64,000 nucleotides of DNA from Comamonas sp. Y33R10-2 (GTDB lineage: Bacteria > Pseudomonadota > Gammaproteobacteria > Burkholderiales > Burkholderiaceae_C). The notes under the pieces were generated by a model. It was not told the origin of the DNA and did no database searches. It saw only the letters and a program-made list of their open reading frames with translations. Location of the stretch: NCBI RefSeq assembly GCF_019355935.1, contig NZ_CP079925.1, positions 2,542,001-2,606,000 of the forward strand. Reading direction: 5' to 3'. Of this stretch, positions 58,171-63,407 are shown in pieces (position 1 is the first letter of the stretch; each line of letters begins with the position of its first letter). The position numbers were made by a program, and so were the translations under genes.

Positions 58171-58209
58171 ATAGCTGCTAGCGCTTATACATCAAGCGCT
58201 AGCAGCTAT
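58171..58209. repeat. Family A hairpin repeat, perfect copy
   Basis: ATAGCTGCTAGCGCTT (58171-58186) pairs fully with 58194-58209 around the 7-nt loop ATACATC. It has the same geometry as the copy at 45521, and lies between convergent uvrA and the sugar dehydrogenase gene. Confidence 0.85.
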
Positions 58210-58226
58210 CAAATTCGAAGTGGTTT

Positions 58227-59401: not shown

Positions 59402-60628
59402 ATGCATGCCATGGATACCGCCAACCACTCTCCCCTCGCTAACCTCGCTCGCACACCGCATGCTGTCTGGGATTTCGTCATCGTCGGTGCAGGCATGGCC
59501 GGCACCTCTACCGCCTGGCAACTGGTTCAGTCGGGCGACGATGCGACCTCCGGCACTCCCCCTTCTGTGCTGGTGCTAGAGCGCGAATCCCAGCCCGGCT
59601 ATCACACCACCGGCCGCTCAGCTGCACTGTTTGAAGAGCACTACGGCCCCGCGCAAGTTCAAGCCCTGACCCGCGCCAGCCGCGCCTTCTACGATGCGCC
59701 ACCCACTGGTTTTACCGAAGCGCCCATCCTCACGCCACGCGGCGTGTTGTACGTGGGAATGAGCGAGCAAAAAGAGCTGGTCGATGCGGCCTATGCCGAA
59801 GCGGTCATCCACTCTCCCGAGGCGCAGCGCCTGAACGCCGAGCAGCTCAAAGCGCTGGTGCCCGTGCTCAACACCGACGTGCTGGTAGACGGTTTTCTGG
59901 ACAACGGCGCACGCGACATTGACGTGCACGGCCTGCACCAAGGCTACATCCGCGGCCTGCGCCAGCGCGGCGGCGAGCTGTGGTGCAACGCCGAAGTGCA
60001 AGGCATTACCCGCAGCAACGACCTCTGGCACATCACCTTGCCGCAAGGCCGCAGCATTCAGGCCAAAACTATCATCAACGCCGCTGGCGCATGGGCGGAC
60101 GTGCTGGCCGCCATGGCCGGTGCCGCCCCCATTGGCATCGTCCCCAAACGCCGCAGCGCCTTCACCTTCCCCGCCCCCGAAGGCATGGACGCAGCGCACT
60201 GGCCCGCCATCATCAGCGCCGATGAAAACTGGTACATAAAGCCCGATGCGGGCCAGCTACTGGGCTCGCCCGCCAATGCCGACCCCGTAGCGCCCCACGA
60301 TGTGGTGCCCGAGGAGCTGGACATTGCTACCGGCATTTATCACATCGAAGAAGCAACCACGCTGCAAATCCGCCGCCCATCGCACACCTGGGCTGGGCTG
60401 CGCTCGTTTGTGGAAGACGGCGAGCTGGTGATCGGCTGGGACGCATCGCCCACGCCTGTGGCGGGATTTTTCTGGGTGGCGGCGCAGGGCGGCTATGGCA
60501 TTCAGAGTGCAGCGGGCTATAGCTTGTTGGCGCGCAATTTGTTATTGGGCGAGGTGCTTGATGGGACGCTGGCTGCTCAGGCGGTGAGTGTGGAGGCGGT
60601 TTCGCCTGCGCGTTGCCAGCGGGGGTGA
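59402..60628 (+). CDS. FAD-dependent D-amino acid dehydrogenase-like oxidoreductase (DauA-like)
   Basis: A 408-residue DAO-family flavoprotein. The FAD motif is FVIVGAGMAGTSTAWQL (about 25-41). The segment GYHTTGRSAALFEEHYG (about 66-82) is a hallmark of D-arginine dehydrogenase. Later motifs are INAAGAWADVLA, ENWYIKPD and FFWVAAQGGYGIQSAAGYS. It probably oxidises D-amino acids to keto acids and ammonia; substrate range unknown. ATG at 59402 or 59411 are both possible. It diverges from the sugar dehydrogenase with a 20-bp gap, so promoters overlap the opposite genes. Confidence 0.88.
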   Translation: MHAMDTANHSPLANLARTPHAVWDFVIVGAGMAGTSTAWQLVQSGDDATSGTPPSVLVLERESQPGYHTTGRSAALFEEHYGPAQVQALTRASRAFYDAPPTGFTEAPILTPRGVLYVGMSEQKELVDAAYAEAVIHSPEAQRLNAEQLKALVPVLNTDVLVDGFLDNGARDIDVHGLHQGYIRGLRQRGGELWCNAEVQGITRSNDLWHITLPQGRSIQAKTIINAAGAWADVLAAMAGAAPIGIVPKRRSAFTFPAPEGMDAAHWPAIISADENWYIKPDAGQLLGSPANADPVAPHDVVPEELDIATGIYHIEEATTLQIRRPSHTWAGLRSFVEDGELVIGWDASPTPVAGFFWVAAQGGYGIQSAAGYSLLARNLLLGEVLDGTLAAQAVSVEAVSPARCQRG

Positions 60629-60635
60629 TTTTTGG

Positions 60636-60674
60636 CTTTCTGCGCTTGTGTATCAAGCGTTGGCAGCTATTGAT
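60636..60674. repeat. Family A hairpin repeat after the FAD enzyme
   Basis: TTTCTGCGCTT, loop GTGTATC, then AAGCGTTGGCAGCTAT. The inner arms pair and the outer left arm has drifted. It marks the left border of the repeat island. Confidence 0.6.
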
Positions 60675-60715
60675 TTTGAGTTTTTCTGCTGTGCCAGCAA
60701 TCTTTAGCTGTACCA

Positions 60716-61021
60716 GCGACAGAGGCCGGGTCTCGCCCCGGCAGGCGAGTTACCTTTCTTGCTCGCACAAGAAACGTAACCCAAAGAATGCGCCCCTGCT
60801 GTCTGCGTCCCTACGCTACGTTTCACTTCTCTACGGGCAAACCTACGTCACACGCTTCAGTCTGCGGTGCCGCCCAACTCGCTGCGCGGCTTTGCCGCTT
60901 CGCTCAGACAAACGGCGGCAAGTCAGAGCACGAAGCAACGCTGTCCTGCGGCAGCGTTGCCCACAGCCTGAACCGCGTGCCGCAGGCGCAGACACAAGGG
61001 GGTTGGGAGCGGATACGGGCA
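60716..61021 (+). repeat. Family C composite repeat, copy 1
   Basis: A unit of about 300 bp. Order: GACAGAG-GCCGGGTCTCGCCCCGGC; a CTTTCTTG...CAAGAAA hairpin; AAAGAATGCGCCCCTGCTG; CGGGCAA; GCCCAACTCGCTGCGCGG; CAGACAAACGGC-GGCAAGTCAGA; GACACAAGGGGGTTGGGA; GGATACGGG. The same order occurs in reverse at 61096-61393. A possible short coding frame crosses it (60613-61038) but has no ribosome site or family match. Confidence 0.8.
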
Positions 61022-61095
61022 GCCTGCCTGATTTGTGACGAAATCAGTCTCTAGTCAAGGTGCTGAAATGGGTTGCCGCTATCAATTTGATAAAG

Positions 61096-61393
61096 AAGCT
61101 ATCCCGCATTCGGTATCTCACCCCTTGTGCCCACGCCTGTGACGGTAAGTTCTTGGGGCTGGCAGTTGCACCGCAGAGTGCAACTGCATCGTCATCTGAC
61201 TTGCGGCCGTTTGTTTGAACGAAGTGCCGTAGGCACGCAGTGAGTTGGGCCGCACAGCCCCAAGAGCTTGACGGCGCAGGTTGCCCCGTAGCGCAGCGAA
61301 GGGGTCGTGGGCAGTAGGGGTGCAGCTCTTTGCCTACTTTCTGGCAGCAGAAAGTAGGTTGCCCGCCGGGGCGAAACCCGGCTCCTGTCCGTT
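61096..61393 (-). repeat. Family C composite repeat, copy 2 (convergent with copy 1)
   Basis: Read on the minus strand: GGACAGGAGCCGGGTTTCG, CCCCGGCGGGCAACCTA, a CTTTCTGC...GCAGAAAG-type hairpin, AAAGAGCTGCACCCCTACTG, GGGGCAACCTGC, GCCCAACTCACTGCGTG, CAAACAAACGGCCGCAAGTC, GGCACAAGGGGTGAGATACC. All modules of copy 1 occur in the same order. Confidence 0.8.
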
Positions 61394-61505
61394 AATCAGG
61401 CATGCGGCAAAAATATCAGTCCAAGCCGCTCCTAATCAAGGTATTGATTGGACATAGAGCTATCAAATTAGATGCATATCACCGCCAGCGACCAGATGCC
61501 CGCTC

Positions 61506-61575
61506 TCAGCCCAGCAGGTGACTCATATTTCTCGCTTGCGCAAGAAACGTAGCCCAAAGACCGAGGTCGGCCAGA
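61506..61575 (+). repeat. Family C fragment, left side of the orphan gene
   Basis: CAGCAGGTGACTCATATTTC, a CTCGCTTGCG hairpin, CAAGAAACGTAGCCCAAAGA. It matches the second and third modules of copy 1 and then stops; the GCCGGG palindrome is missing. Confidence 0.65.
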
Positions 61576-61711
61576 AGCAGTCATTCCATCATTGGTCTTT
61601 GTCTACTCATAGCAAGCTTGCAATTGCTCACTTTCATCACTTACGGATAGATTCATTCTTCAATGAACGACATGCGTGTTTGCCTGTCATCTAGATTTCG
61701 TTAGGTTTTAC

Positions 61712-62182
61712 ATGTCCGAAATACGCTCAAATCTTTCGCAGTACTACGCATCAAAGGCACTCTTTGAGACGGTACTTGGACGCGACGCATTTGTTCGTGT
61801 AAAAGATTTTGGATCGCTCGCCGCTTGGAGAGAAAACTACAGCAAGCTACTAGGTGCGATTAGGGTCTCAGTTGAGGCGACCGTAAAGATTTGCGACGAA
61901 GAATGGAAGTCTCAAGTTGCACTACTTCTGACGCATGGGTTAGATGGTGTGAAGACGGCAAAGAGCATCGATGAAATCCACGCAAGTGCAGCAGCAACGC
62001 TGGGAGAGCTTGCCTTTCTTCAACTTGGTTTCGTGCCGCTAGGACACCGAACTTGCAAGAATATTCCATTAGTTCCGAAGAACTGGGATATGTCGCCGGT
62101 TAGAACGGTTCAGTACGTCCAGTCACCGACACAGCGAGAAACGCAACGCAGTCTACGAGACAAGAAGAAAGCGACGAGTTAG
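61712..62182 (+). CDS. Orphan hypothetical protein inside the repeat island
   Basis: A 156-residue protein with no family I recognise. It has no signal peptide or membrane helix. Predicted mainly helical at the start (SQYYASKALFETVLGRDAF), with a central helical region (VEATVKICDEEWKSQVALLL) and a basic C-terminal tail ending DKKKATS. The start at 61712 is chosen because an upstream ATG at 61676 lacks support. Codon use is visibly lower in G/C at third positions than in neighbouring genes. It is bracketed by family C fragments in inverted orientation (61506 and 62266), which suggests acquired cargo. Confidence 0.6.
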   Translation: MSEIRSNLSQYYASKALFETVLGRDAFVRVKDFGSLAAWRENYSKLLGAIRVSVEATVKICDEEWKSQVALLLTHGLDGVKTAKSIDEIHASAAATLGELAFLQLGFVPLGHRTCKNIPLVPKNWDMSPVRTVQYVQSPTQRETQRSLRDKKKATS

Positions 62183-62265
62183 TAGTTTAGATTTCCACTC
62201 CGGCTCGGCTGCAGTCGTTGGTCAGCTCAAATACAGCGGGCAGCAGGCCAAGCTCTTTAGCTATC

Positions 62266-62292
62266 GGGACGAAGCCCGGCTCCTGTCTGTCA
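62266..62292 (-). repeat. Family C fragment, right side of the orphan gene
   Basis: Read on the minus strand: GACAGACAGGAGCCGGGCTT then CGTCCC, matching the outer end of copy 2. It is inverted relative to the fragment at 61506. Confidence 0.6.
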
Positions 62293-62314
62293 AATAAAAT
62301 TGAGGCACAAACAA

Positions 62315-62350
62315 GCCGCAAGTCCAATTAAATAAAGGACTATCAGCTAT
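62315..62350. repeat. Family A hairpin repeat before the Bug terminator
   Basis: GCAAGTCC, loop and A/T region, then AAAGGACTATCAGCTAT. A drifted copy abutting the following terminator. Confidence 0.55.
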
Positions 62351-62392
62351 CAAAAAAGCGGCCTGCACCCAAGGCACAAGCCGCTTAAAAAT
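62351..62392 (-). terminator. Intrinsic terminator of the second Bug gene
   Basis: AAGCGGC (62356-62362) and GCCGCTT (62380-62386) pair around a partly paired 17-nt loop. Read on the minus strand, six T follow. Confidence 0.8.
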
Positions 62393-62423
62393 TCAGCAAA
62401 GCCCAAAGTTGGGCCCGCCCAAA

Positions 62424-63407
62424 TCAGTCCTCAATCTTCGCGTACTGAACAATCTTGGTGTACTTCGCGATTTCGGCGTTGATGTACTTGCCAGCATCCG
62501 TCTTGGGGTTGGCCACCACGTTGCCAGTTTCTTCCATCTTCTTGCGGAACTCAGGCGAAGCCATCACTTCATCAAGCGCCTTCTTCAGCTGCGCCGCGAT
62601 GGGTGCGGGCAGGCCCTTGGGGGCCATCATGGCGAACCAGCTGTTCAGGTCCACGTTCTTGAACTGGGGCAGCTCAGACAGGGCAGGAATATCAGGCGTG
62701 ATGGACGAGCGCTTGGCTTCGGTGGTACCCAGTGCCACGATCTTGCCAGCCTTGATTTGGGGCAGAGCGGAGGACAGCACAAACATGCCGAATTCGATGT
62801 TGTTACCCACCAAGTCGGTGGTCAGTGGCGCCACGCCCTTGTAGGGGATGTGGGTCATCTGCAGCTTGCCCTGCTCTTGAATCAGCTCACCCGACAAGTG
62901 CAGCGCGGTGCCCACGCCGGAGCTGCCGTAGCTGTACTGGTCAGGGCTCTTGCTCACCAAGCTCACAAACTCGGCAGCGGTCTTCACGCCAGCCTTGTGC
63001 GATGCGACCAGCACCATGGGCTGCGAGCCCACCATGCCGATGGGTGTGAAGTCACCAATGCTGTACTTCACGGCCTTGTTGATGAGCTTGGCAATGGCCA
63101 GCTCGTTATTAGCGCCCACCATGATGGTGTAGCCGTCTGCAGCGGCCTTGGACACCTTTTGTGCACCAATCACGCCACCAGCGCCGCCCAAGTTCTCCAC
63201 CACCACAGGCTGGCCCAGCTTCTTGGCCAAACCATCGGCCACCAAACGGCCCACCAAGTCAGTGCTGCCGCCTGCGGGGTAGCCAATGACCATGGTGATG
63301 GCCTTGCTGGGATAGTTATCAGCAGCAAAGGCAGGGGCTGCAACAGCAGCGGCCATCAGCAGGCCTGCGGCCACGACGGTACGGCGAAGAGTATGGGTGT
63401 TTTGCAT
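62424..63407 (-). CDS. Bug/TctC-family periplasmic solute receptor
   Basis: A 327-residue periplasmic receptor. The signal peptide ends PAFAAD (about 27). Bug motifs: ITMVIGYPAGGSTDLVGR, VVENLGGAGGVIGAQKV and THIPYKGVAPLTTDLV. The start (complement of 63405-63407) gives the standard short Bug N-terminus; the frame is open further upstream. A LysR-type gene lies directly upstream on the same strand and probably controls it. The ligand is unknown and no permease is adjacent. It is only moderately similar to the receptor at 48943-49926. Confidence 0.92.
   Translation of the reverse strand: MQNTHTLRRTVVAAGLLMAAAVAAPAFAADNYPSKAITMVIGYPAGGSTDLVGRLVADGLAKKLGQPVVVENLGGAGGVIGAQKVSKAAADGYTIMVGANNELAIAKLINKAVKYSIGDFTPIGMVGSQPMVLVASHKAGVKTAAEFVSLVSKSPDQYSYGSSGVGTALHLSGELIQEQGKLQMTHIPYKGVAPLTTDLVGNNIEFGMFVLSSALPQIKAGKIVALGTTEAKRSSITPDIPALSELPQFKNVDLNSWFAMMAPKGLPAPIAAQLKKALDEVMASPEFRKKMEETGNVVANPKTDAGKYINAEIAKYTKIVQYAKIED

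Follow-up and report, generated by a model that had tools for sequence, protein, structure and literature searches.

Inverted-repeat cassettes without a transposase gene, and with arms that look like structured RNAs, in Comamonas and other bacteria

REPs are hairpins of 20 to 40 nt with a 5' tetranucleotide and are associated with a RAYT transposase. Integron attC sites are bound by their recombinase through the shape of a single strand, and in the triple-helix pseudoknots of telomerase RNA and ENE a U/C-rich strand lies in the major groove of an A/G-rich helix. Among described bacterial RNAs, TwoAYGGAY (RF01731) is presented in the text available to us as a probable RNA that is probably not cis-regulatory (PMC2864571), and in a second, partially available source it has been proposed to bind CsrA (PMC4333381). 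Bp1_Cand684 (RF02421), in the accessible part of its description, is listed as validated by RT-PCR in Burkholderia pseudomallei and has pdhB and lpdA among its neighbors (PMC3521395); as described there, cDNA was primed with oligo(dT), so that the RT-PCR was not strand specific.

The elements reported here are like MITEs in having inverted repeats, no transposase, many copies and, in part of one lineage, 8-bp flanking repeats, although their arms are about 250 to 300 bp long, contain conserved pseudoknots, are found class-wide and often come with genes. They are like integron cassettes in that one to few small genes are found at structure-conserved sites, in arrays and with variable cargo, but the sites are inverted at both ends, much longer and provided with pseudoknots; rather than a direct-orientation attC after each gene, we found neighboring sites that are mostly inverted. 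The modeled docking of a U/C-rich strand into the major groove of an A/G-rich helix recalls telomerase RNA and ENE, whereas the present case is bacterial and found on repeated cassettes, with exchange between U-A-U and C-G-C and no poly(A). The Rfam model of TwoAYGGAY is confined to the arm body, leaving out the tail with its pseudoknots as well as the paired arrangement of the arms and the cassette, and Bp1_Cand684 is described, in the part of the source available, as a single, possibly trans-acting sRNA, while the arms here are paired. In a literature search at the level of abstracts we did not recognize a description of such a cassette family, and we do not claim that it is absent from print.

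The window analyzed is the whole stretch of 64,000 nucleotides from Comamonas sp. Y33R10-2 (positions 2,542,001 to 2,606,000 of NZ_CP079925.1), a genome of 3.84 Mb in a single contig. The island lies between a left gene that ends at 60628 and, on the right, a minus-strand gene with its end at 62424, and it consists of an intact unit and a second, decayed one in which an ORF sits between relics of the two arm ends. The two facing copies of about 300 bp that the preliminary description had reported are indeed present at 60716-61021 (A arm) and 61096-61393 (B arm, inverted with respect to A, with the plus strand reading outward). In the case of the A arm, the outward-reading minus strand fits a tail module of two consecutive H-type pseudoknots at 60725-60809 (minus strand; covariance model R1, 96.8 bits, E value of 7.7e-19). 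Within it, the terminal hairpin H1 (GCCGGGTCTCGCCCCGGC) of the second pseudoknot occupies 60725-60742, the Y stem and loop, which form the long hairpin of the first pseudoknot, occupy 60749-60780 (minus strand), and the third strand, which is complementary in parallel to the purine strand of that stem and is followed by the pseudoknot partner of the Y loop, is found at 60781-60792 (minus strand). The B-arm tail module is at 61304-61382 on the plus strand (R1, 75.6 bits, E value of 5.6e-14), and the 74-bp center between the arms (61022-61095) contains a GCTATC-type repeat segment. As an inverted repeat, A and B align in pieces (74 nt at 80%, 39 nt at 79% and 37 nt at 70%).

A spacer of about 95 bp (61394-61487), of the same kind as those in the other tandem arrays of this genome, separates the two units. 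The second begins with a decayed A-arm start on the minus strand (61488-61582, with a degenerate A start at 61488-61560 of 78% identity and a weak R1 match, E value of 0.009, at 61498-61582) and is closed by a relic of the B-arm outer end at 62265-62290 on the plus strand. Between them, the plus-strand passenger ORF at 61676-62182 encodes 168 amino acids from a GTG or 156 from the ATG at 61712. Its product matched no Pfam family, but in one further genus there is a relative at 40% identity (matches in 2 of 250 family genomes, own included), which makes the earlier view that the island holds no supported open frame doubtful for this stretch; the 3.4-kb locus of that sole relative gave no R1 match. 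Repeats of the GCAGCTATCAAA type were seen at 58202-58213 and 62343-62354, near gene 3' ends, and a similar segment is also found in the center and spacer of units. There are three matches in the window at up to one mismatch against 0.44 expected. We regard this as a probably distinct dispersed repeat, short in length, of the family. The minus strand of 62353-62423 gave a sub-threshold match to the Rfam family sX14 (E value of 0.021; 26.6 bits where 80 are needed), possibly just the terminator hairpin of the right gene.

Searched against its own genome, the A arm found 19 matches, with identities of 83-100% in the 10 long ones (212-306 bp), and the whole 678-bp element found 28. By DNA search with the whole element, 52 of 53 genus genomes match, own included. 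The preliminary description had proposed a repeat family, to be given up if a genome search found no other copies or if the two copies failed to align beyond the end palindrome; since other copies exist and the outer parts of A and B align at about 70% identity over 224 columns, the family is refuted on neither count. Its mention of similar modules in other Comamonadaceae-type genomes was borne out as well, with 115 of 250 family genomes, own included, matching in a plain DNA search. The tail covariance model R1, which has 19 matches in the own genome, extended the distribution to 68 of 274 class genomes and 26 of 200 phylum genomes, at anything from none to at least 22 matches per genome, and one exact pattern brought up 51 stretches, with hosts that include Methylomonas, Dyella, Burkholderia, Luteimonas, Lysobacter, Vulcaniibacterium, Rudaea and Methyloglobulus. 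Elsewhere in the own genome, the unit of about 680 bp occurs singly (L023 and L024) and in tandem arrays, one of three units (L022) and another (L021) in which genes for a radical-SAM protein and a NERD-UvrD helicase lie among several units. Among 52 hand-picked loci, judged by crude gene finding, 24 lie between convergent genes (two of these rows being one place), 20 between co-directional and 6 between divergent genes, and 2 were unclassed; the units favor the 3' ends of genes.

Read outward, the last 85 nt or so of each arm are consistent with two H-type pseudoknots in succession. X1 comes first and is followed by a U/C tract, helix Y with its loop X2, a short strand Z and, last, hairpin H1; the pseudoknots arise from pairing of X1 with X2 and of Z with the loop of H1. 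When 75 loci were searched for the motif, 114 candidate arm ends were obtained, including a few false ones, and from 99 parsed arms an alignment (A1) of 67 distinct rows was made after leaving out 8, another 23 with the same core and 1 more. Its 28 pairs are formed in 95.5% of cells, with two-sided changes in 17 pairs and 270 such changes in total. The covariation score of 0.379 compares with a mean of 0.118 in shuffled alignments, none of 500 reaching it, and with at most 0.095 in slid controls, so that the tail covaries above both kinds of control, as asked of a structured RNA; on the weakest measure of covariation, the count of additional pair types, 11 of 500 shuffles came up to the observed value. 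The tail is a structured nucleic acid, predicted to hold two pseudoknots. Pairing geometry favors the outward strand, as do wobble pairs in three of the four helices, the loop helix X having 8 A-C cells and no G-U cells, with its short-loop rows misaligned. For 36 whole genus arms, RNAalifold gave a consensus of 67 pairs in which the tail is joined by a long stem enclosing two hairpins, and 27 of these pairs have at least two doubly changed rows. The same analysis of 57 other family arms (31 pairs) retained the tail helix but did not recover the long-stem body. We saw no U-tract 3' of the tail, which therefore is not an intrinsic terminator.

The U/C tract is complementary, in parallel orientation, to the purine strand of helix Y and changes in step with it: UUUCUUUU is found with AAAGAAAA, UUUUCUUU with AAAAGAAA, UUCUCUUU with AAGAGAAA and UUUCCUUU with AAGGAAAG, with single exceptions such as one arm that sets UUUCCUUU against AAGAAAAG. 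Parallel complementarity of this kind is the rule of the pyrimidine-motif triple helix in the major groove. In 92 family arms (the 99 parsed ones minus 6 false or insert-bearing arms and 1 without a tract) the parallel match averaged 6.70 against 6.07 (standard deviation [SD], 0.05), a value reached by none of 2,000 re-pairings. For 96 distinct combinations of a wider set, in which 274 of 289 rows were parsed, it was 6.72 against 5.79 (SD, 0.07; again 0 of 2,000), and the antiparallel control was also raised, less strongly (6.31 against 5.89; SD, 0.08). On the strength of this covariation, the arm RNA appears to end in a pseudoknot modeled with a triple helix of U-A-U and C-G-C major-groove triples.

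Neighboring tails less than 3 kb apart point outward in 76 of 91 pairs, inward in 5 and along the same strand in 10, a count that leaves out nine loci fetched twice and hits under 60 nt and includes some regions (L150-L169) fetched because a pair was visible. Of the 115 loci used for it, 35 show one tail only. In a set obtained by pattern only, a hand count gave 24 outward pairs of 28, and 14 of these 24 represent one Burkholderia site. Outward pairs, 184 to 2470 bp apart, flank either a short center or small passenger genes. The short centers held no convincing gene, some of the listed ORFs (60-180 amino acids) overlapping arm sequence, whereas the longer ones contain small genes and in several loci have a G+C content below that of the flanks. 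When 16 passenger proteins were scanned against Pfam, 7 reached the cutoff (DUF6998, methyltransferase, M90 peptidase, ion channel, Schlafen AlbA_2, LprI/DUF3298 and Tae4), and a PAAR match stayed below its own.

The same site could be compared with and without cargo in Burkholderia, where 14 of 22 stretches have both tails and were used, the other 8 being left out. Their flanks align as one site, which on our reading of the sequence would lie between genes for a putative AraC-type regulator and a putative aminotransferase. The tails are 466-673 bp apart in 11 loci and 2.0-2.5 kb apart in the other three (L182, L215 and L196), whose centers have similar PAAR-like and Tae4-like ORFs (the Pfam scan being of L215 only). 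Putative type VI secretion system (T6SS) genes occupy the center in three loci that share their arms with 11 short-center ones. Between L215 and L211 the arms align over about 240 and 230 nt, and a center of some 180 bp is replaced by one of 2.2 kb; gain and loss of cargo are indistinguishable here. Within Comamonas, the three-unit site of the own genome (L022) corresponds to a single unit in L034, L042, L035, L044, L041 and L049, and its cargo-bearing array (L021) to a single unit in L040. The helicase gene of that array is found, at 84% identity, at another site in genome G022 (L097), about 750 bp from units. We also observed a segment of about 1 kb adjoining a unit (L044 2151-3151, compared with L034) that is present or missing depending on the Comamonas species.

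Small genes between sites, a center that differs at a fixed site and a shape kept while the sequence varies would all suit an arm fold that works as DNA, a recombinase recognizing single-stranded or extruded arms by shape and exchanging the cassettes between them. We nevertheless hold this to be unlikely, because the ends are inverted and not direct, no enzyme was found in a search for ISL3 transposases, the geometry of the pseudoknot loops would, we reason, fit one strand per arm, and the relative Bp1_Cand684 was detected as an RNA, according to the part of its description available (PMC3521395).

Comparison with Rfam left the element unmatched both in the window and in the own genome. Elsewhere, RF02421, whose model covers the Y-stem end and the last hairpin with its flank, has two matches in a Burkholderia ambifaria copy (L211), at the outward ends of both arms, and none above the curated score in the window. 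RF01731 has two matches over the cutoff in L142, each upstream of a tail, and in L224, a copy from genome G748, it scores 43.7 bits on one arm (cutoff, 43) and a sub-threshold 37.3 on the other. In G385, TwoAYGGAY lies just upstream of the tail, on the same strand, in five of seven tail matches among the matches listed. Nine of 143 sampled genomes are TwoAYGGAY positive, of which four are also R1 positive and five are not, so that the link with the arms holds for only part of the TwoAYGGAY family. On a Burkholderia cepacia plasmid, a short match was seen between aceF and lpdA (L294 2927-3202), a position that resembles the pdhB and lpdA neighborhood of Bp1_Cand684, as far as its source describes it (PMC3521395). 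The arms may be expressed in the own genome as well.

That TwoAYGGAY matches form the arm body in some class genomes, together with the CsrA-binding proposal (PMC4333381) and the RT-PCR of Bp1_Cand684 (PMC3521395), both taken from partially available sources, speaks for each arm being an independent gene for a trans-acting sRNA, for instance a CsrA sponge, that by chance became an inverted duplicate. We give this somewhat less credence than recognition as DNA, as neither the window arms nor the own genome has a TwoAYGGAY match, the tail matches vary from none to at least 22 per genome, and passenger genes and flanking repeats would be left unexplained.

The lineage of genome G748 is an amplified one, with at least 22 tail matches, and 20 fetched regions of this genome align mutually over about 800 bp, mostly at 84-96% identity. 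Their outer ends converge on inward-reading sequences (GGTTCTTCGC) of two kinds, and about eight copies with both ends readable have one kind of terminus at each end. Across these regions (L224-L243) the two kinds, usually one per end, can stand either way round with respect to the inner unit, which looks as though it inverts or was captured in both directions. When eight flanking bases were scored at 16 places (two of the rows being the two ends of one element), all eight matched in three, seven in three, eight in a further one if the end is shifted by 2 bp, and three to five in nine; seven of the 16 places therefore have 7 or 8 matching bases, one through the shift. The pattern saw a tail in nine of the 16, including six of these seven, and saw none in the remaining seven, one of which has 8 of 8. 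The copy in the window shows no definable ends comparable to those of G748 and no definable target duplication; we infer its mobility. A search for ISL3 transposases in eight genomes gave no fitting autonomous partner in G748 or G000, full ISL3 transposases being present in G047, G423 and G546. Partial matches to PF01610 (ISL3 transposase) were seen over a fatty-acid-desaturase-like ORF in L250 (G000:C1:400142) and L248 (G748:C1:336632). A plain MITE derived from an insertion sequence, in which the conserved fold does no more than satisfy the needs of the transposase ends and the passengers are accidental, would account for the inverted repeats, the lack of a transposase inside and the 8-bp flanking repeats in part of the G748 copies, but it is the least probable reading, since many host families retain the same pseudoknots and third strand and the outermost 30 bp or so of G748, which differ from the arms, could alone serve as transposase ends.

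The explanation that we favor, and consider moderately probable, is a MITE-like cassette that lacks a transposase and in which structured RNAs make up the arms and probably protect the 3' ends of outgoing transcripts. It draws on the arms and their covariation, the distribution, the outward pairing, the presence and absence of cargo at one site and the 8-bp flanking repeats in part of the copies of one lineage. The preliminary description had left three readings side by side and had noted the absence of a transposase, and inverted terminal repeats with no transposase gene seen inside are what we found. Its non-autonomous mobile element and its structured RNA both survive and look like one object, a transposase-less inverted-repeat cassette with structured-RNA arms, while the REP-like (REP/BIME) reading fares less well, given arms that far exceed REPs in length and carry two pseudoknots.

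In this cassette, the two long arms would be inverted copies of one structured RNA, each genus arm consisting, read outward, of a body (the long stem enclosing two hairpins) and the tail of about 85 nt with its two H-type pseudoknots, the first of them presumably stiffened by the U-A-U and C-G-C major-groove triple helix. As DNA, the element would be moved in trans by a transposase, and genes could sit between the arms, as at the one site where their presence seems to vary while the arms stay. An outgoing transcript, from a passenger gene or by read-through from a neighbor, would end with the folded tail, and one crossing the unit in either direction would end with one correctly oriented tail. 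The tail may then shield 3' ends from exonucleases or otherwise mark them, a role that would fit both the fold and the position and would render an element that lies downstream of a gene harmless or useful. A bolder version, which we regard as less likely than not, is an integron-like trade of single genes by means of inverted structured-RNA arms, in which the triple-helix pseudoknot RNA would be needed for the capture, movement or expression of passengers, and Bp1_684 and at least part of TwoAYGGAY would be such arms.

If right, many unnamed intergenic repeats of Comamonas-like bacteria, Burkholderia, Methylomonas, xanthomonads and others would be one gene-carrying family, and the two orphan Rfam RNAs, TwoAYGGAY and Bp1_684, would gain a context. 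There would also be a bacterial triple-helix pseudoknot with three covarying strands, and small genes, including sets of T6SS effectors, would have a route into and out of fixed chromosomal sites. The family would thus link mobile DNA with an unusual RNA structure.
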